Below, one piece after another: positions 206 to 28,643 of a stretch of DNA of 64,000 nucleotides. The stretch comes from Streptomyces sp. RFCAC02 (GTDB lineage Bacteria; Actinomycetota; Actinomycetes; Streptomycetales; Streptomycetaceae). How positions within the stretch are numbered: the first letter of the stretch is position 1; every line of letters starts with the position of its first letter. The stretch spans positions 4,435,501-4,499,500 of the forward strand of contig NZ_SAUH01000001.1 in the NCBI RefSeq assembly GCF_004193175.1, in the 5' to 3' direction. A model generated the notes under the pieces. It was given only the letters and a program-made list of their open reading frames with translations. It was not told where the DNA came from and searched no databases. Both the position numbers and the translations under genes were made by a program.

Positions 206-430
206 GGGTCGACCTCCCCGTCGTCCGTGGCCGCGCCCGCCGCCGGGTCAGCCGCCTCCGTGACACGGGTGGCCGGGAGCCGCCGGGTGAAACATCCGGG
301 CCGCGCCACGGGCGCGGTCGTCACTCCCGGTGAGGTTGCGCCCCACCGTCTGGTCATGGGCCCACCCGGCGCGTACAGTTGTGCGGCGGACCGGCGACCG
401 AACGGTTGTCCGGGCCGCTTCCGACAATTG

Positions 431-537
431 AATGCGTGTGCGAACGAGGGAAGCCGGTGCGAATCCGGCGCTGACCTGCAACCGTGAGTGACGCCCCTGG
501 GGGCCGTCACGAGCCGGAATGCTCGCCGCACGCGTGC
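431..537 (+). promoter_or_regulatory. Cobalamin (B12) riboswitch
   Basis: The conserved core is visible: GGGAAGCCGGTGCGAATCC at 448-466, then the B12-box-like GCTGACCTGCAACCGTGA at 470-487. A hairpin follows (GTGACG at 488-493 pairs with CGTCAC at 505-510), then GCCGGAATGCTCGCC. The element is closed by a 9-bp helix, GCGTGTGCG (434-442) with CGCACGCGT (527-535). Such elements switch off B12 import genes when adenosylcobalamin is plentiful. The stretch 538-687, up to the first gene, should contain the expression platform; I see GC-rich pairing there but cannot assign the switching helices. It precedes a B12-type ECF operon, which supports the call. Confidence 0.88.
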
Positions 538-687
538 ACTGCTTCCCACTGTCACGGTCTGCAGAGTGGAGCCCTGGGTCCTCCGGCCCCTCGGCCCCTG
601 CCGCCGCTCCTCCACACGAGCGCGCCAGGGGTTTCGCGATGTCCGGGGCGTCGCGCGGGGTCCGCCTGCCCCAGCGAAAGGCCCGCG

Positions 688-1749
688 ATGCCGCTCCGCG
701 CCGAAGCCGCCCGCGCCGTCGGGATACGGGCCGCCGCCCTCACCGTCCTCCTCGTCCTGCTGCAGGCCCTGCTGCCGCCGACCGCCGCACGGGCCGCGCA
801 GCCCACGGCGGCCGGCACCCCCGGGTTCTGCCCCGGTGCCGCCGGCGTGACGGTCGTCGTCGACTTCCGCGAGCTGGGCGGCGGGCAGGTCGTGCGCTGC
901 GCGCCGGACGCGCCCGCCGACGGCCTCGCCGCGCTGCGGGCCGCCGGGTTCGAGATCACCGGGACGAGCCGGTGGGGCGACTCGTTCGTCTGCCGCATCA
1001 ACGGCCGCCCCGGCGTGGACGCCGAACCCTGCACGGACACCCCGCCGGCCTCGGCGTACTGGTCGTACTGGCACGCGGAGAACGGCGGGTCCTGGACGTA
1101 CAGCCAGCGCGGCGCCTCGTACCGCACCCCGGCGGAGGGCACGTTCGAGGGCTGGTCGTTCTCGCTGGACCGGGAGATGGACGACGCGCCGCCGCCCGGT
1201 GTCGCCCCGGTCCGTCCCGTGCCGGACGACGGCGGGGACGGTGGTGGCGGGGACGACGGGGACGACGGCGGGACCGCGCCGGGCGGCAGCGGCGGCTCGT
1301 CCTCCGGCTCGTCCGGCTCGGATTCCGGCGCCGGCCCGGACCCGGGCTCCACCGCGGGCACCGACCCCTCCGACGGCGACGGCGGGAACACCCCGCCCGC
1401 CGGGCAGCCGTCGGCCCCCGGCGCCGACCCGTCCCCCGACGACGCGCCCACCCCGGACGACGACGCCACCGCCACACCGGACGACGGGCCGACCGGGCCG
1501 GACGACGACGCCACGACCCCCGCCCCCGCGGACGGGACCACGGCCCCCGCCCCCTCCGAGGCCCCGGCCTGGAGCGGCGAGGACGAGGAGTTCGAACAGG
1601 AACGCGCCGAACGGGACGGGTCGTCGCGAGGCCCCTCCCCGGCCACCGTCGCCGTGCTGGCCCTGGTCGCCGCGCTCGCGGCCGGCGGTGCCCTCGCCGC
1701 CAGGCGCCGGCGCCGCACCGCCGAGGCACGGACGGACGACGCCGCATGA
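688..1749 (+). CDS. Secreted, membrane-anchored DUF4430-like beta-domain protein (transcobalamin C-terminal-domain-like)
   Basis: 353 residues. Signal peptide at about 1-36 (ending PTAARA). A compact domain at about 53-160 starts VTVVVDF and ends with YWSYWHAENGGSW, an RGASYRTP stretch and EGWSF. This resembles the beta domain of intrinsic factor/transcobalamin, where YWQF and the following strands occupy the same place. Cys 48, 71, 102 and 115 could form two disulfides. A D/G/S/P-rich stalk (about 165-315) leads to one TM helix and RRRRR, with no LPxTG-type motif, so it is probably held in the membrane. The start is ATG 688 with GAAAGG upstream; a longer frame from 484 would run through the riboswitch. 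Stop and next start overlap (ATGA). Confidence 0.75.
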   Translation: MPLRAEAARAVGIRAAALTVLLVLLQALLPPTAARAAQPTAAGTPGFCPGAAGVTVVVDFRELGGGQVVRCAPDAPADGLAALRAAGFEITGTSRWGDSFVCRINGRPGVDAEPCTDTPPASAYWSYWHAENGGSWTYSQRGASYRTPAEGTFEGWSFSLDREMDDAPPPGVAPVRPVPDDGGDGGGGDDGDDGGTAPGGSGGSSSGSSGSDSGAGPDPGSTAGTDPSDGDGGNTPPAGQPSAPGADPSPDDAPTPDDDATATPDDGPTGPDDDATTPAPADGTTAPAPSEAPAWSGEDEEFEQERAERDGSSRGPSPATVAVLALVAALAAGGALAARRRRRTAEARTDDAA

Positions 1750-2861
1750 CACCGCGACTCCTGCCGCGCGCGCTGCACCCCGGCGCCTGGTGGCTGTGGG
1801 CACTCGGCCTCGCGGCCGCGGCGAGCCGCACGACCAACCCCGTCCTCCTCGCCCTGCTCCTCGCCGCCGCCGGCTGCGTCGTGGCGCGGCGGCGCACGGA
1901 CGCGCCCTGGGCGCTCTCGTTCCGCATGTACGTCGTCCTCGGCGGGGTGATCGTGGCGGCCCGCGTCCTGTTCCGCGTCGTCTTCGGCGGCGGCAGCGGG
2001 GAGACGATCCTGCTCACCCTGCCCGAGATCCCCTTGCCCGACTCCACCGGCCTGCGCCTGCTCGGCCCGGTCGCGGCCGAGGAGGTGCTCGGCGGCGCGT
2101 ACGACGGCCTGCGGCTGGCCGCCATGGTGATCTGCGTCGGCGCGGCGAACACCCTCGCCGACCCCAAACGCATGCTCAAGGCCATGCCCGGCGCCCTGTA
2201 CGAGGTCGGCACCTCCGTGGTGGTCGCGCTGACCGTCGCCCCGCAGCTCGTCGAGAGCGTGGGCCGGGTACGCCGGGCGCGGCGGCTGCGCGGCGCCCGC
2301 GAGAAGGGCCGCCGGGCGCTGCGCGGCATCGTCGTCCCCGTCCTCGAGGACGCCCTGAACCGCGCGCTTGCCCTGGCCGCCGCCATGGCGTCGCGCGGGT
2401 ACGGCCGCACCGGCGGCACCCCGGCCCGTACGCGGCTGCTGGTCGGCGTCCTCGTGCTCGGCGGGCTCCTCGGCATCGCGGCCGGCCTGTACGGGCTGCT
2501 CGACGCCTCGTCCCCCGCGTACCTCGGGACGCCGATGCTGCTGGCCGGCACCGCCGTCGCCGTGACCGGGTTCGCGCTCGGCGGGCGGCGGGTGCGCCGC
2601 AGCGGCTACCGCCCGGACCGCTGGCGCGCCGCCGAACTCCTCACCGCCGCCTCGGGCCTCGGCGCGGCGGCGCTCGCCCTGTGGGCCGACCGCGTCGATC
2701 CGGCCGTCCTCAACCCGCCGCTCGCGCCGCCGGTGTGGCCCGACGTGTCGGCCCTCGCGGTCGCCGCCGTGCTGACGGGCCTGCTGCCCGCCGTCCTGAC
2801 GCCACCCCCGCCCCCGCCCGTCCCCGCGCCGTCCGCCGTCCCCGAGGAGGCCACCGCGTGA
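1746..2861 (+). CDS. ECF transporter T component (EcfT)
   Basis: 371-residue polytopic membrane protein. It couples ATP hydrolysis by the ATPase subunits to movement of the substrate-binding S component. The two short coupling motifs typical of EcfT are visible: ARRLRG at 178-183 and AMASRGYG at 213-220, in a basic cytoplasmic stretch after the third hydrophobic block. Further TM helices follow, then a Pro-rich C-terminus. It is longer than the usual 250-270-residue EcfT because of additional C-terminal helices. Start overlaps the previous stop (ATGA), and its stop overlaps the GTG of the ATPase gene, so the operon is translationally coupled. Confidence 0.9.
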   Translation: MTPRLLPRALHPGAWWLWALGLAAAASRTTNPVLLALLLAAAGCVVARRRTDAPWALSFRMYVVLGGVIVAARVLFRVVFGGGSGETILLTLPEIPLPDSTGLRLLGPVAAEEVLGGAYDGLRLAAMVICVGAANTLADPKRMLKAMPGALYEVGTSVVVALTVAPQLVESVGRVRRARRLRGAREKGRRALRGIVVPVLEDALNRALALAAAMASRGYGRTGGTPARTRLLVGVLVLGGLLGIAAGLYGLLDASSPAYLGTPMLLAGTAVAVTGFALGGRRVRRSGYRPDRWRAAELLTAASGLGAAALALWADRVDPAVLNPPLAPPVWPDVSALAVAAVLTGLLPAVLTPPPPPPVPAPSAVPEEATA

Positions 2862-4474
2862 TCACTTTCGAGGACGTCGGCTTCACCTACCACGGCGCTT
2901 CCCGCCCGGCCCTGGCCGGCGTGGACCTGACCGTGTCCGAGGGCGAACTGTGCCTGGTCGCCGGACGGACCGGCGCGGGCAAGTCCACGCTGCTCGGCGC
3001 CGTCAACGGCCTGGTGCCCCGGTTCACCGGCGGCACCCTCGCCGGGCGCGTCACGGTCGCGGGGCAGGGCACCGAGGACCATCCGCCGCAGGAGTTCGCC
3101 CACCTCGTCGGCACCGTCGGCCAGGACCCGCTCGCCGGCTTCGTCACCGACACCGTCGAGGAGGAACTCGCCTACGGCATGGAGCAGCTCGCGATCCCGC
3201 CGGACGTCATGCGCAAGCGGGTCGAGGAGACCCTCGACCTCCTCGACCTCGCCGCGCTCCGCCACCGCCCGCTGCGCGCCCTCTCCGGCGGCCAGCAGCA
3301 GCGGGTCGCCATCGGATCGGTCCTCACCGCCCACCCCGCCGTCCTCGTCCTGGACGAGCCGACCTCCGCGCTCGACCCGACCGCCGCCGAGGAGGTCCTC
3401 GCGGCCGTGCTGCGGCTCGTCCACGACCTCGGCACCACCGTCCTGATCGCCGAGCACCGCATGGAACGCGTCCTCCAGTACGCCGACCGCCTGCTGCACC
3501 TGCCCGGCGACGGCACCGTCAGGGACGGCACGCCCGCCGACCTCATGACCGACTGCGACGTCGCGCCGCCCGTCGTCCACCTCGGCCGCGCCGCCGGCTG
3601 GCGGCCCCTGCCGCTGTCCGTGCGCGACGCGCGCCGCCGGGCACCCGAACTCCGCGACCGCCTCGCCGGCCTCGTGCCACCGCGGCCCGCCACCGCGTAC
3701 GGCGGGGGCGCGACCGTCCTCGACGCCAGGAGGGTGACCGTCACCCACGGCGCGACCGTCGCCGTCCGCGCCCTCGACCTGACCCTGCGCGCCGGCGAGG
3801 TCACCGCCCTCATGGGACGCAACGGCGCGGGCAAGTCCTCCCTGCTGTGGGCGCTCCAGGGTTCGGGTCCGCGCCGCTCCGGCAGCGTCGCGGTGGACGG
3901 CACCGACCCCGCACGCCGCCCGCCGCACGAGGCCCGCGCCCTCGTCGGGCTCGTCCCCCAGTCCGCCGCCGACCTGCTCTACCTCCACACCGTCGCCGAC
4001 GAGTGCGCCCAGGCCGACACCGAGTCGGCCGCCGCACCCGGCACCTGCCGTGCCCTGCTGGACGGCATCGCCCCCGGCGTACCGGACGACCGGCACCCGA
4101 GGGACCTGTCCGAGGGGCAGCGCCTCGCCCTCGTCCTCGCCGTCCAGCTCACCGCCGCGCCGAAGGCCGTCCTGCTGGACGAGCCGACGCGGGGCCTCGA
4201 CTACCACGCCAAACGCGCCTTCGGCCGGATCGTCCGCGACCTCGCCGACGGCGGCGCCACCGTCCTCGTCGCCACGCACGACGTGGAGTTCGCCGCCGCG
4301 ACCGCCGACCGCGTCACCGTGCTCGCCGACGGGGCCGTCGTCGCCGACGGGCCGACCGCGCACATCCTGTGCTCGTCGCCCTCCTTCGCCCCCCAGGTCG
4401 CCAAGGTGCTGCGGCCCCAGCCCTGGCTGACGCCCGAACAGGTGGCCGACGCCCTGGCGGGGGCCGCCGGATGA
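2858..4474 (+). CDS. ECF transporter fused A-A' ATPase (two CbiO-type ABC domains)
   Basis: 538 residues with two ABC ATPase domains in one chain. Domain 1 has Walker A GRTGAGKST at 36-44, LSGGQQQR signature and VLVLDEPTSALD. Domain 2 has GRNGAGKSS, a degenerate LSEGQ signature and VLLDEPTRGLD. This replaces the separate EcfA and EcfA' subunits and powers cobalamin uptake with EcfT and the S protein. The GTG start at 2858 has GAGGAGG at 2844-2850 and overlaps the EcfT stop. The weaker second signature suggests unequal ATP sites, common in fused pairs. Confidence 0.93.
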   Translation: MITFEDVGFTYHGASRPALAGVDLTVSEGELCLVAGRTGAGKSTLLGAVNGLVPRFTGGTLAGRVTVAGQGTEDHPPQEFAHLVGTVGQDPLAGFVTDTVEEELAYGMEQLAIPPDVMRKRVEETLDLLDLAALRHRPLRALSGGQQQRVAIGSVLTAHPAVLVLDEPTSALDPTAAEEVLAAVLRLVHDLGTTVLIAEHRMERVLQYADRLLHLPGDGTVRDGTPADLMTDCDVAPPVVHLGRAAGWRPLPLSVRDARRRAPELRDRLAGLVPPRPATAYGGGATVLDARRVTVTHGATVAVRALDLTLRAGEVTALMGRNGAGKSSLLWALQGSGPRRSGSVAVDGTDPARRPPHEARALVGLVPQSAADLLYLHTVADECAQADTESAAAPGTCRALLDGIAPGVPDDRHPRDLSEGQRLALVLAVQLTAAPKAVLLDEPTRGLDYHAKRAFGRIVRDLADGGATVLVATHDVEFAAATADRVTVLADGAVVADGPTAHILCSSPSFAPQVAKVLRPQPWLTPEQVADALAGAAG

Positions 4475-5370
4475 GCGGCACCCGGCCCCGCCGCGCGGCA
4501 CGCGTCACGGCGCTGCGGGTCGGCCCCCGCGCGAGCGCCGTCCTGTGCGTCGCGAGCGCCATCGGCCTCGCCATGTTCTGCTGGCCGCTCCTGAGCCCGC
4601 CGCAGCCCCAGGCCATGGCCCACGCCGGTCACGCGCCGCTGCTCTTCGTCGTGCTGCTGCCGGTCGTCATCGCCCTGGTGCTCGCCGAGCTGTCCGAGGG
4701 CGGCATCGACCCGAGGACGCTCGCCCTGCTCGGCGTCCTGGCCGCCGTCAACGCCGCGCTCCGCCCGCTCGGCGCGGGCACCGCCGGCATCGAGACGGTG
4801 TTCTTCCTGCTCATCCTGGCCGGACGGGTCCTCGGCCCCGGGTTCGGCTTCGCGCTGGGCGCCGTCTCCCTGTTCGCCTCCGCCCTGCTGACGGCCGGCG
4901 TCGGCCCGTGGCTGCCGTTCCAGATGATGGCCGCCGGCTGGGTCGGGCTCGGCGCCGGGCTGCTGCCGCGCCGCCCCACGGGCCGCGCCGAGATCGCGCT
5001 CCTCGCCGCCTACGGCGCCGTGTCCGCGTACGCCTTCGGCCTCGTCATGAACCTGTGGTTCTGGCCCTACGCGACGGGCACCGGCACCGACCTGTCCATC
5101 GACCCCGAGGCGCCCTGGACCACCAACCTCCGCACCTTCCTCCTCTACACCCTGGTGACCTCCACCATCGGCTGGGACACCGGCCGGGCGGTGACCAACG
5201 TCCTCACCGTCTGCGCCCTCGGCCCCGCCGTCCTCACCACCCTGCGCCGCGCCGCGCGGCGCGCCGCCTTCGACACCCCCGTGACGTTCGCCGGCCGCGC
5301 ACCCGCCGCCGGCGACACCGCCACCGGCGTCCCACCGGGCGCCGACGACAAGGAAGCACCCATCCGATGA
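4471..5370 (+). CDS. ECF transporter substrate-binding S component, probably for cobalamin (CbrT-like)
   Basis: 299 residues with about six to seven TM segments and a hydrophilic C-terminus. It contains GFGFALGAVSLFASALLTAGVG and a GPWLPFQM stretch, as in ECF S proteins. S proteins bind the vitamin; the identity of the vitamin here is inferred from the upstream B12 riboswitch and the operon partners rather than from binding residues. ATG 4471 overlaps the ATPase stop. An alternative would be cobinamide or another corrinoid as main ligand. Confidence 0.85.
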   Translation: MSGTRPRRAARVTALRVGPRASAVLCVASAIGLAMFCWPLLSPPQPQAMAHAGHAPLLFVVLLPVVIALVLAELSEGGIDPRTLALLGVLAAVNAALRPLGAGTAGIETVFFLLILAGRVLGPGFGFALGAVSLFASALLTAGVGPWLPFQMMAAGWVGLGAGLLPRRPTGRAEIALLAAYGAVSAYAFGLVMNLWFWPYATGTGTDLSIDPEAPWTTNLRTFLLYTLVTSTIGWDTGRAVTNVLTVCALGPAVLTTLRRAARRAAFDTPVTFAGRAPAAGDTATGVPPGADDKEAPIR

Positions 5371-6833
5371 CCAGACCCCAGCGGCCCCGCGCCGCCACCC
5401 TGCTGACCGCCGCCCTCCTCGCCTCGGCCGCGCTCGCGGGCTCGGGCACCGCCGCCCGCGCCGACGCGCCGCCGGACCTCGCCGACCCCGCCGCCGCGGC
5501 CGCGACCTGGACCGTCGCCCAGCTCACCGACGGCAGCAACGCGTCGGGCGACCACGGCCTGACCGCCGACATCGTCCTCGGCCTCGCCTCCACCGGCACC
5601 GCGGGCGACGCCCAGCGGGCCGCGACCGACTGGCTCGCGGAGAACGCCGCCGACTACGTCACCCGGGGCGCGCCCGACAGCGGGACCGTCTTCGCCGGCG
5701 GCACGGCGAAGCTCGCCCTCGTCGCCGCGGCCGAGCACCGGGACCCGTCGGACTTCGGCGGCCTCGACCTCACCGCCCTGCTGCTCGCCGGTCTCCAGGA
5801 CACCGGCCGGATCAGCGACGCCGGGTCGGCCGGCGACATGTCGAACCAGTTCTCCCAGTCCCTCGCCGTCCTGGCCCTGGAACGGACCGGCGACCTCCCC
5901 GACTTGGCCGTGGACTTCCTCGCCTCGACCCAGTGTGCCGACGGCGGCTTCCCTCTGTCGCTGCGCCGCAACCCCGACCGCTGCACCTCCGACACCGACA
6001 GCACCGGGCTCGCCGTCCAGGCCCTGATCGCCGCCGGGCACAGTGACGGCACCGACGCCGCCCTCGACTGGCTGGAGGACGGGCAGGGCGAGGACGGCGG
6101 CTTCGGCTACAACGCCACCGCCGTCCCCAACAGCAACTCGACGGCCCTCGCCGTGCAGGCCCTCGTGGCCGGCGGCCGGGACGAGGCCGCCGACCTGGGC
6201 GTCACCTGGCTGCGCGCGATGCAGGTCGGCTGCGCCGGGGCCGCCGGGGACCGGGGCGCCGTCGGCTACCTGGACCCGGTCGCGGACGGCATGGCGCTGC
6301 GCTCCACCGCCCAGGTCGTCCCGGCCCTCGCGGGCGTCCCGCTCGGCGACATCGACGCGCCGGCCACGACCACGCCGGGCGTGTCCGGGATCGACTGCAC
6401 GCCGGACGAGGGGCAGACGGACGGCGGCGCGTCCGGCGACCCGGGCACCGACGACCCGCAGGACCCGGACGAGCCGGGCGACCCGCAGGACCCGGACGAC
6501 GGCACCTCCGGCGGCACCGACCCGGGTGACACCGACCCGGACGACACCGACCCGGACGACACCGGTACGGGCGGCACGACCACCGGCGGCACCGACTCCG
6601 GCGGGACGGACACCGGCGGCACGACCACGGACGGCACGACCACCGGCGGGACGGATTCCGGCGGCACGACGACGGGCGGCACGGACACGGGCGGCACCGG
6701 CGGTGTCGTCCCGGACGGCAGCCTCGCGTCCACCGGCAGCTCCCCCCTGCCCCTCGTCGGCCTGGCCGCGGCCCTGCTGGCGGCGGGAGCGGCCGCCACC
6801 CTCGTCGCACGCCGCCGCCGCGCCACGCACTGA
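5367..6833 (+). CDS. Exported alpha/alpha-barrel protein with LAxTG sortase signal (transcobalamin/intrinsic-factor alpha-domain-like)
   Basis: 488 residues. Signal peptide about 1-33. An all-helical barrel of prenyltransferase/squalene-cyclase type spans about 40-330. Repeated helix motifs QFSQSLAVLALERTG, DTDSTGLAVQALIAAG, NSNSTALAVQALVAGG and LRSTAQVVPALAGV are strikingly like the STGLAMQAL and SIAQILPSLKG segments of human intrinsic factor as I remember them. A D/G/T-rich stalk (345-450) leads to LASTG at 453-457, a hydrophobic helix and RRRR, the class E sortase sorting layout of Streptomyces. So it is likely wall-linked and binds corrinoid outside the cell. Start overlaps the S-component stop. 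Confidence 0.8.
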   Translation: MTRPQRPRAATLLTAALLASAALAGSGTAARADAPPDLADPAAAAATWTVAQLTDGSNASGDHGLTADIVLGLASTGTAGDAQRAATDWLAENAADYVTRGAPDSGTVFAGGTAKLALVAAAEHRDPSDFGGLDLTALLLAGLQDTGRISDAGSAGDMSNQFSQSLAVLALERTGDLPDLAVDFLASTQCADGGFPLSLRRNPDRCTSDTDSTGLAVQALIAAGHSDGTDAALDWLEDGQGEDGGFGYNATAVPNSNSTALAVQALVAGGRDEAADLGVTWLRAMQVGCAGAAGDRGAVGYLDPVADGMALRSTAQVVPALAGVPLGDIDAPATTTPGVSGIDCTPDEGQTDGGASGDPGTDDPQDPDEPGDPQDPDDGTSGGTDPGDTDPDDTDPDDTGTGGTTTGGTDSGGTDTGGTTTDGTTTGGTDSGGTTTGGTDTGGTGGVVPDGSLASTGSSPLPLVGLAAALLAAGAAATLVARRRRATH

Positions 6834-6867
6834 CCCGTCCTCCCCACCACGACGAAGGAGTCCGTCC

Positions 6868-7353
6868 ATGCACCTGCCCCTGACCCGCCGCACCGGAACC
6901 GCCCTGACCGCCGTCGTGACCGCCGCGCTGGCGTTCACCGGTGCCACGGCCGGCCCGGCGGCCGCCGCCGACCCGGTCACCGTCACCCTCACCGTCACCG
7001 CATCCGACGGCGTGGTGTTCGACGGCGAGGTGACCACGACCGGCCACACCGTCACCCCGGCGACCGGCGCGGCGCACCTGTGCGACGGCACCAACGCCGG
7101 CGCCAACCCGACCGCCGGCGCCACCCCGACCGCGGCCCTGGACGACGCGGCCGACGGAGCCGGCTTCGACTGGGACGGCGTCTGGTACGCGTCGTTCGAC
7201 GACTACCTGGTGACGAGCATCGACGGCCGGCCGCAGGACGCCGACCACTTCTACCTGCTCACCGTCAACGGCGCGGAGGCGACGGTCGGCGGCTGCCAGC
7301 TCCTCCTGGACGAGGGCGACGAAGTCGCCTTCACCTGGACCGAAATAGGCTGA
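6868..7353 (+). CDS. Small secreted DUF4430-domain protein (transcobalamin beta-domain-like)
   Basis: 161 residues. Signal peptide 1-34 (ending AAAA). The rest is a single domain: VTVTLTVTAS start, a WDGVWYASFDDYLVTSID middle, HFYLLTVNG, and a DEGDEVAFTWTEIG end. The pattern of a beta strand, an aromatic turn, xVNG and a terminal DGDxVxF strand is that of DUF4430. Cys 72 and 143 may pair. No anchor is visible, so it is either free or bound to the preceding barrel protein, which in animals is fused to this domain. ATG 6868 has GAAGGAG upstream. Last gene of the operon. Confidence 0.78.
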   Translation: MHLPLTRRTGTALTAVVTAALAFTGATAGPAAAADPVTVTLTVTASDGVVFDGEVTTTGHTVTPATGAAHLCDGTNAGANPTAGATPTAALDDAADGAGFDWDGVWYASFDDYLVTSIDGRPQDADHFYLLTVNGAEATVGGCQLLLDEGDEVAFTWTEIG

Positions 7354-7362
7354 CCCGCCCGC

Positions 7363-7392
7363 CCCGGGCCGCGGGCACCCCCACGGCCCGGG
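7363..7392 (+). terminator. Terminator hairpin of the B12 operon
   Basis: Perfect 9-bp stem CCCGGGCCG (7363-7371) with CGGCCCGGG (7384-7392), ten bases after the last stop codon. It has no T-run, as is usual in high-GC actinobacteria. Confidence 0.6.
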
Positions 7393-28522: not shown

Positions 28523-28643
28523 CGGGCGGCCCGACCCCGTTTTGGCCCTCGCGTACCAGTACTGGCAGACTGGACCGTCGGCCCCGGTTCACGGCGCGCG
28601 TCCGCGTGCCGACCCGGCGCCCCACCGCTAGCTAGGAGAGACC

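Follow-up and report, generated by a model that had tools for sequence, protein, structure and literature searches.

Little is known of how Gram-positive bacteria gather extracellular vitamin B12. The question bears on an operon in the first 7.4 kb of a 64,000-nucleotide stretch of Streptomyces sp. RFCAC02 (NZ_SAUH01000001.1, positions 4,435,501-4,499,500, forward strand), which we call the window. Behind a cobalamin riboswitch the operon encodes an exported protein (P1), the membrane scaffold, fused ATPases and S component of an energy-coupling factor (ECF) importer, an exported alpha/alpha toroid and a small secreted protein (P6). A first-pass annotation of the DNA had read this arrangement as surface capture of corrinoids followed by hand-over to the ECF importer, and the genes, the riboswitch, the predicted folds and the conserved linkage described below support that interpretation; in the broad sense, the operon is very probably an uptake system for corrinoids, that is, compounds of the vitamin B12 type. 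Throughout, G numbers denote sampled genomes (G000 being the source genome, which holds the window), L numbers loci, and P0120, P0331 and P0343 proteins; group labels such as Streptomycetaceae and Actinomycetes were derived from named relatives.

The riboswitch matches the Rfam cobalamin family with 34.3 bits against a cut-off of 31.5, and a purpose-built model, R1, recovers its core with 77.6 bits (E=7.5e-18), confirming that a cobalamin riboswitch stands ahead of the operon as first annotated. The training set of model R1 comprised 21 riboswitches, of which 20 came from relatives and one from the second such operon of the source genome, with the window's own copy excluded. Forty stretches, each covering the 900 bases ahead of an SCO2321-type toroid of Streptomycetaceae, were searched (four further loci of this type, in G034, G045, G049 and G057:C8, being left out); an Rfam cobalamin-clan riboswitch was found in 24 at E<=0.1, in the same-strand orientation in all 24, with 22/40 remaining at E<1e-3 and 14/40 at the cut-off of the listed family. 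No other RNA family reached E<=0.1 in the 40 stretches, and Rfam found no riboswitch in 20 control stretches taken ∼20 kb away. With model R1 the corresponding counts were 27 of 40 and none of 20; 16 of the 40 stretches had supplied training sequences, and 11 of the 24 outside the training set match. The association extends beyond the family: of 20 loci that belong to the same class but to other families, all outside the training set, R1 detected a riboswitch at 17, representing seven families, and the first detected gene downstream was a toroid at 15 and P1 at two. In the class Actinomycetes 67 of 148 genomes have a P1-type match; the 20 loci were taken from 20 of these 67, chosen mostly for long contigs, and span nine families, with 10 loci from a single family, f26.

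Two other genomes carry the full gene set of the window, and in both (L042 and L043) a co-directional riboswitch that Rfam missed at its cut-off precedes P1. Because toroid, P1 or DUF4430 genes lying away from ECF genes also have riboswitches of their own (L006, L007, L046 and L048; L044, L047 and L049; L122, L123 and L124), the link to B12 does not depend on the ECF genes alone. The L122 riboswitch reaches only E=0.0055 with Rfam and E=2.4e-18 with model R1, and at L123 (1489-2938) the riboswitch is followed by a stand-alone DUF4430 protein and then by a protein of Peripla_BP_2 (PF01497), the Pfam family that includes BtuF. L046, L051, L053 and L058 each have a further cobalamin riboswitch on the other strand, arranged back to back with the one that precedes the toroid or fusion gene and less than ∼600 bases from it.

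The gene positions and couplings of the first-pass annotation were also borne out. The start and stop codons overlap by four bases at the P1/EcfT, EcfT/EcfAA', EcfAA'/S and S/toroid junctions, which suggests translational coupling of these first four junctions, and the DUF4430 gene (P6) follows the toroid gene after a gap of 34 bases. The ECF set is complete, with EcfT, two EcfA units and an S component. EcfT matches Pfam CbiQ (E=3.8e-7) and the EcfT of PDB entry 5d3m (E=9.5e-5), the matched sequence being common to 5d3m and 6fnp, the latter presumably ECF-CbrT; EcfAA' has two stretches matching each of the Pfam ABC_tran and ECF_ATPase models; and the S component, conserved with the operon, matches ECF_trnsprt with 35.7 bits (cut-off 30.7).

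The same parts recur together across the family. A toroid match is present in 50 of 61 Streptomycetaceae genomes, or 48 without G006 and G059, in which only the low-complexity tail matches. EcfT, EcfAA and S occur together at 36 of 38 toroid loci (three of them from G004 and two each from G008, G025, G031, G032 and G044), and a P1-type protein likewise at 36 of 38. Gene order varies: the window, L042 and L043 have P1-ECF-toroid-P6, the SCO2321 type, L047 and L049 have toroid-P1-ECF, and L045, L051, L052, L053 and L058 have a fusion of P1 with two or three toroids ahead of a further P1 and the ECF genes. The fused open reading frames of L051 and L052 (1305 and 1270 amino acids) place a P1 domain and three tandem toroids in one exported chain downstream of a cobalamin riboswitch, and in P0331 and P0343 a P1 domain and, after it, one toroid make up a single exported chain. 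Taken together, fusion, gene neighborhood and fold make a pairing of toroid and beta domain the natural reading. The source genome itself has a second, paralogous toroid-P1-ECF operon (L039), and at L199 and L200 a riboswitch and P1-ECF genes are present, with no toroid found. At L181 (G150) two adjoining toroid-P1 pairs, each with its own cobalamin riboswitch, precede one ECF gene set.

The exported proteins can be described individually, with signal peptides and membrane anchors judged by eye. P1 consists of a signal peptide, a folded domain, a Pro/Asp-rich linker, a C-terminal transmembrane segment and an arginine tail, and the folded domain is predicted to adopt the beta-grasp fold of the transcobalamin type. 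The toroid protein begins with a signal peptide, and its C-terminus has LASTG ahead of a transmembrane segment and an arginine tail; the LASTG motif scores 22.6 bits with a LAVTG-type model, under its cut-off of 27. AlphaFold2 predicts an alpha/alpha toroid for its folded domain with pLDDT 96.2 and pTM 0.94. Since P1 (38.3 bits, cut-off 85) and the toroid (115.8 bits, cut-off 300) fall under the cut-offs of NCBIfam SCO2322_fam and SCO2321_fam, respectively, they appear to be diverged relatives of the SCO2321/SCO2322 locus of Streptomyces. A precomputed PF28005 assignment exists for P1, and the P1 core profile gives low scores with SCO2322-type proteins (17-41 bits, mostly in its last third, weakest E=0.0011). 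The SCO2321-type toroids are circularly permuted with respect to that of the window, the C-terminal half coming first in 25 open reading frames (L054-L057 and L059-L078), with scores for the two halves of 81-133 and 43-62 bits among the matches listed. P0120 is a toroid protein with an S-layer homology match (PF00395), an alternative form of wall anchoring. P6 starts with a signal peptide, has no visible anchor, and passes the Pfam DUF4430 cut-off narrowly (24.0 versus 23.8 bits, at 7198-7341); 185 proteins match it at E<=0.001.

The genome context is consistent with dependence on imported cobalamin. CbiC is needed for the corrin ring, and a match to it, found in 57 of the 61 Streptomycetaceae genomes, is absent from the source genome and three of the other 60, as is a CobN match from the source genome. 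The B12-binding domain is matched four times in that genome. Three sampled genomes have the full gene set of the window (G000, G008 and G044), and two of them (G000 and G008) lack CbiC, a comparison of small numbers with relatedness uncontrolled. The source genome has four cobalamin riboswitches, at the window operon, the L039 operon, metE and nrdAB. The last two (L041 and L040) are behind cobalamin riboswitches in a genome in which neither CbiC nor CobN was detected.

Table 1. Features of the operon, in window coordinates
Feature	Position	Strand	Basis
Cobalamin riboswitch aptamer, best-conserved core 439-532	386..544	+	Rfam RF00174, model R1
P1, exported membrane-anchored protein, SCO2322/PF28005-type	688..1749	+	Sequence, NCBIfam, PF28005
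Beta-grasp domain of P1, transcobalamin-type fold	796..1197	+	Predicted fold
EcfT, ECF membrane scaffold	1746..2861	+	Pfam CbiQ, PDB 5d3m match
EcfAA' (EcfA-EcfA' fused ATPases)	2858..4474	+	Pfam ABC_tran, ECF_ATPase models
S component, probable substrate-binding membrane subunit	4471..5370	+	Pfam ECF_trnsprt, operon conservation
Exported alpha/alpha toroid (barrel), SCO2321-related; low-complexity linker, C-terminal transmembrane segment	5367..6833	+	NCBIfam, sequence
Toroid domain	5466..6410	+	AlphaFold2, fold matches
LASTG, sortase-type cell-wall sorting motif	6723..6737	+	Sequence, LAVTG-type model
P6, secreted DUF4430 (transcobalamin-like C-terminal) protein	6868..7353	+	Pfam PF14478

Elsewhere in the window, at 28578-28621, there is an L31-Actinobacteria ribosomal protein leader (49.9 bits).

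Several observations weigh against reading the operon as a B12 capture system. Both P1 and P6 had been annotated as DUF4430-type proteins; this holds, narrowly, for P6, and for P1 by predicted fold only, its sequence having no Pfam match, its comparison with the DUF4430 family giving an hhalign probability of 1.8%, and none of its Foldseek matches reaching E 0.001. The alpha/alpha architecture of the barrel stood up to structure prediction, but its closest relatives in structural search are squalene-hopene-type cyclases and not transcobalamin, in fold and in sequence alike. An STGLAVQAL-type motif had been offered as a mark of likeness to human intrinsic factor and proved not diagnostic: the toroid reaches only E=0.12 with the eukaryotic cobalamin-binding model PF01122 (11.8 bits, cut-off 25), which matches 5 of 54 relatives (best 2e-4), when the C-terminal model of squalene-hopene cyclases matches 47 of the 54 (both at E<=0.1). 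When PDB sequences were searched by phmmer with the S component, no S component for B12 came up, CbrT included, and 5d0y (E=0.063) was the sole match. Cobalamin riboswitches are also common, with at least one in 61 of 61 Streptomycetaceae genomes and 1 to 13 each among the matches listed (a count made with stricter filters and not used for positions), and 16 of the 40 upstream stretches have no Rfam riboswitch at E<=0.1. Two more DUF4430 matches lie outside operons of this kind: at L125, a partial match, the riboswitch lies on the opposite strand only, and at L126, a weak match, none was found. Finally, no toroid and no riboswitch were detected at three of the 20 loci outside Streptomycetaceae (L195-L197), where ECF genes adjoin the gene of a P1-type protein whose start resembles a lipobox; such systems may have diverged or may act on a different ligand.

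The likeness of the toroid to cyclases raises the possibility that it is an exported enzyme, a terpene cyclase or a glycan-active protein, and that only its neighbors serve B12 uptake. Squalene-hopene-type cyclases are indeed its best matches, yet the toroid looks exported and anchored, toroids are fused to transcobalamin-type domains, and toroid genes away from ECF genes still lie behind cobalamin riboswitches. The DxDD motif of class II terpene cyclases is also not kept, the toroid family reading D/H-x-D-S/G/A-T there; at residue 212, equivalent to the last Asp by the toroid/cyclase alignment, the 114 rows have S in 53, G in 28, A in 25, T in 7 and D in one. We regard an enzymatic role as highly improbable. 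Much the same can be said of an import of cobalt ions for B12 synthesis in the manner of CbiMNQO, which the membership of EcfT in the CbiQ family would favor: the matches listed for the S component in the profile search are to ECF_trnsprt and ECF-ribofla_trS and do not include CbiM, a pair of exported ligand-clamp proteins is atypical of cobalt importers, and cobalt for ring synthesis would be pointless in a genome without CobN and CbiC matches. Heme or another macrocycle as the ligand, with the riboswitch incidental, has a precedent in the ECF-type heme importer of Staphylococcus reported in the available text of PMC7299338; the recurrence of co-directional cobalamin riboswitches ahead of several separate components makes this the least credible of the readings considered here.

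A more serious competitor, which we nevertheless consider unlikely, is that the imported ligand is a corrinoid precursor or fragment (cobinamide, alpha-ribazole or dimethylbenzimidazole) and not complete B12. Cobalamin riboswitches also precede precursor transporters, and the 57 of 61 genomes that keep CbiC probably make B12 themselves. The available text of a 2013 classification likewise puts CbrT in a 'Cobalamine Precursor' family (PMC3654945). Set against this, G000 and G008 have no CbiC match, and a large flat ligand would fit the partnership of a toroid and a transcobalamin-type beta domain.

For corrinoid capture, the following sequence of events can be proposed. When cellular B12 is low, the riboswitch would permit expression of the operon, as its RNA family suggests. 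Probably tethered to the wall by its LAxTG signal, the toroid protein would close, together with the membrane-anchored P1, on one corrinoid from two sides, in the way of the alpha and beta domains of transcobalamin, and P6 may act as a second, exchangeable lid or as a diffusible catcher. The corrinoid would then be handed to the S component and pumped inward by EcfT-EcfAA'. A bolder extension, which we offer tentatively and consider rather less than an even bet, is a mix-and-match surface clamp in which the toroid is closed by different lids (anchored P1 or secreted P6) and in which separate B12 riboswitches on lids, toroids and multi-toroid chains allow the cell to tune which corrinoids are captured and delivered to the ECF importer; such a clamp would be a two-protein counterpart, perhaps a relic, of the arrangement behind the one-chain animal B12 carriers.

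The nearest described relatives are found in the work of Burroughs et al. 2007 (PMC1796856), whose available text defines, within the SLBB beta-grasp superfamily, a transcobalamin-like clade in bacteria. Its proteins have signal peptides and wall anchors, and their beta-grasp domains are fused to toroids in either order. They are encoded in conserved operons together with a CbiO-like ATPase, a CbiQ-like membrane protein and, in some cases, another SLBB protein, and a role in B12 scavenging is proposed for them. The window operon resembles this clade, as presented there, in its transcobalamin-type beta-grasp fold, its export (by eye) and the association of a toroid with CbiO/CbiQ genes. In that text the clade is placed in low-GC Gram-positives, planctomycetes and some archaea; the main text does not use the words 'Streptomyces' and 'riboswitch', and its single mention of 'actinobacteria' concerns ComEA, although the organism list of Figure 2 has a Mycobacterium, for a family not readable there. 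Relative to that text (PMC1796856), the system described here is new in being actinobacterial, in having toroid and beta domains as separate proteins, in a P1 beta domain that escapes the DUF4430 model, in the circularly permuted Streptomyces toroids, and in riboswitch control that ties the parts together and is repeated across families. The proposed ECF route for B12 is shared with ECF-CbrT of Lactobacillus delbrueckii, the EcfT of the window matching the 5d3m/6fnp sequence, whereas the available text on ECF-CbrT (PMC5997447) describes no exported toroid or beta protein and the window S component gave no CbrT match.

Animal transcobalamin and intrinsic factor share the combination of an alpha/alpha toroid with a beta-grasp domain, but are one chain with the toroid first; the window has separate genes, the fused actinobacterial chains examined have the beta domain first, and the window toroid lies under the cut-off of the animal family model, PF01122. 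The SCO2321/SCO2322 locus of Streptomyces has a toroid, a beta protein, EcfT, EcfAA' and S, often behind a cobalamin riboswitch, and differs from the window operon in gene order, in the absence of the extra DUF4430 gene and in the swapped halves of the SCO2321 toroid. Searches limited to open-licence PubMed Central listed no experimental work on SCO2321, on SCO2322 or on any bacterial system of the transcobalamin type. BtuG of Bacteroides has a different fold. It is a surface protein that captures B12 ahead of import, as is proposed here, but according to the available text it is an outer-membrane lipoprotein that works with BtuB in a Gram-negative cell, unlike the system of the window (PMC6143338).

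The operon is thus a testable and widely conserved candidate for B12 capture, with relatives in Streptomyces, a genus with workable genetics. It ties to B12 several families whose annotations read squalene-oxidase-repeat, 'peptidase' or hypothetical protein, and it brings an actinobacterial branch into the debate on the origin of the animal B12 carriers. For the organism itself, the source genome is predicted to depend on imported B12, unlike the 57 of 61 sampled Streptomycetaceae that have CbiC.

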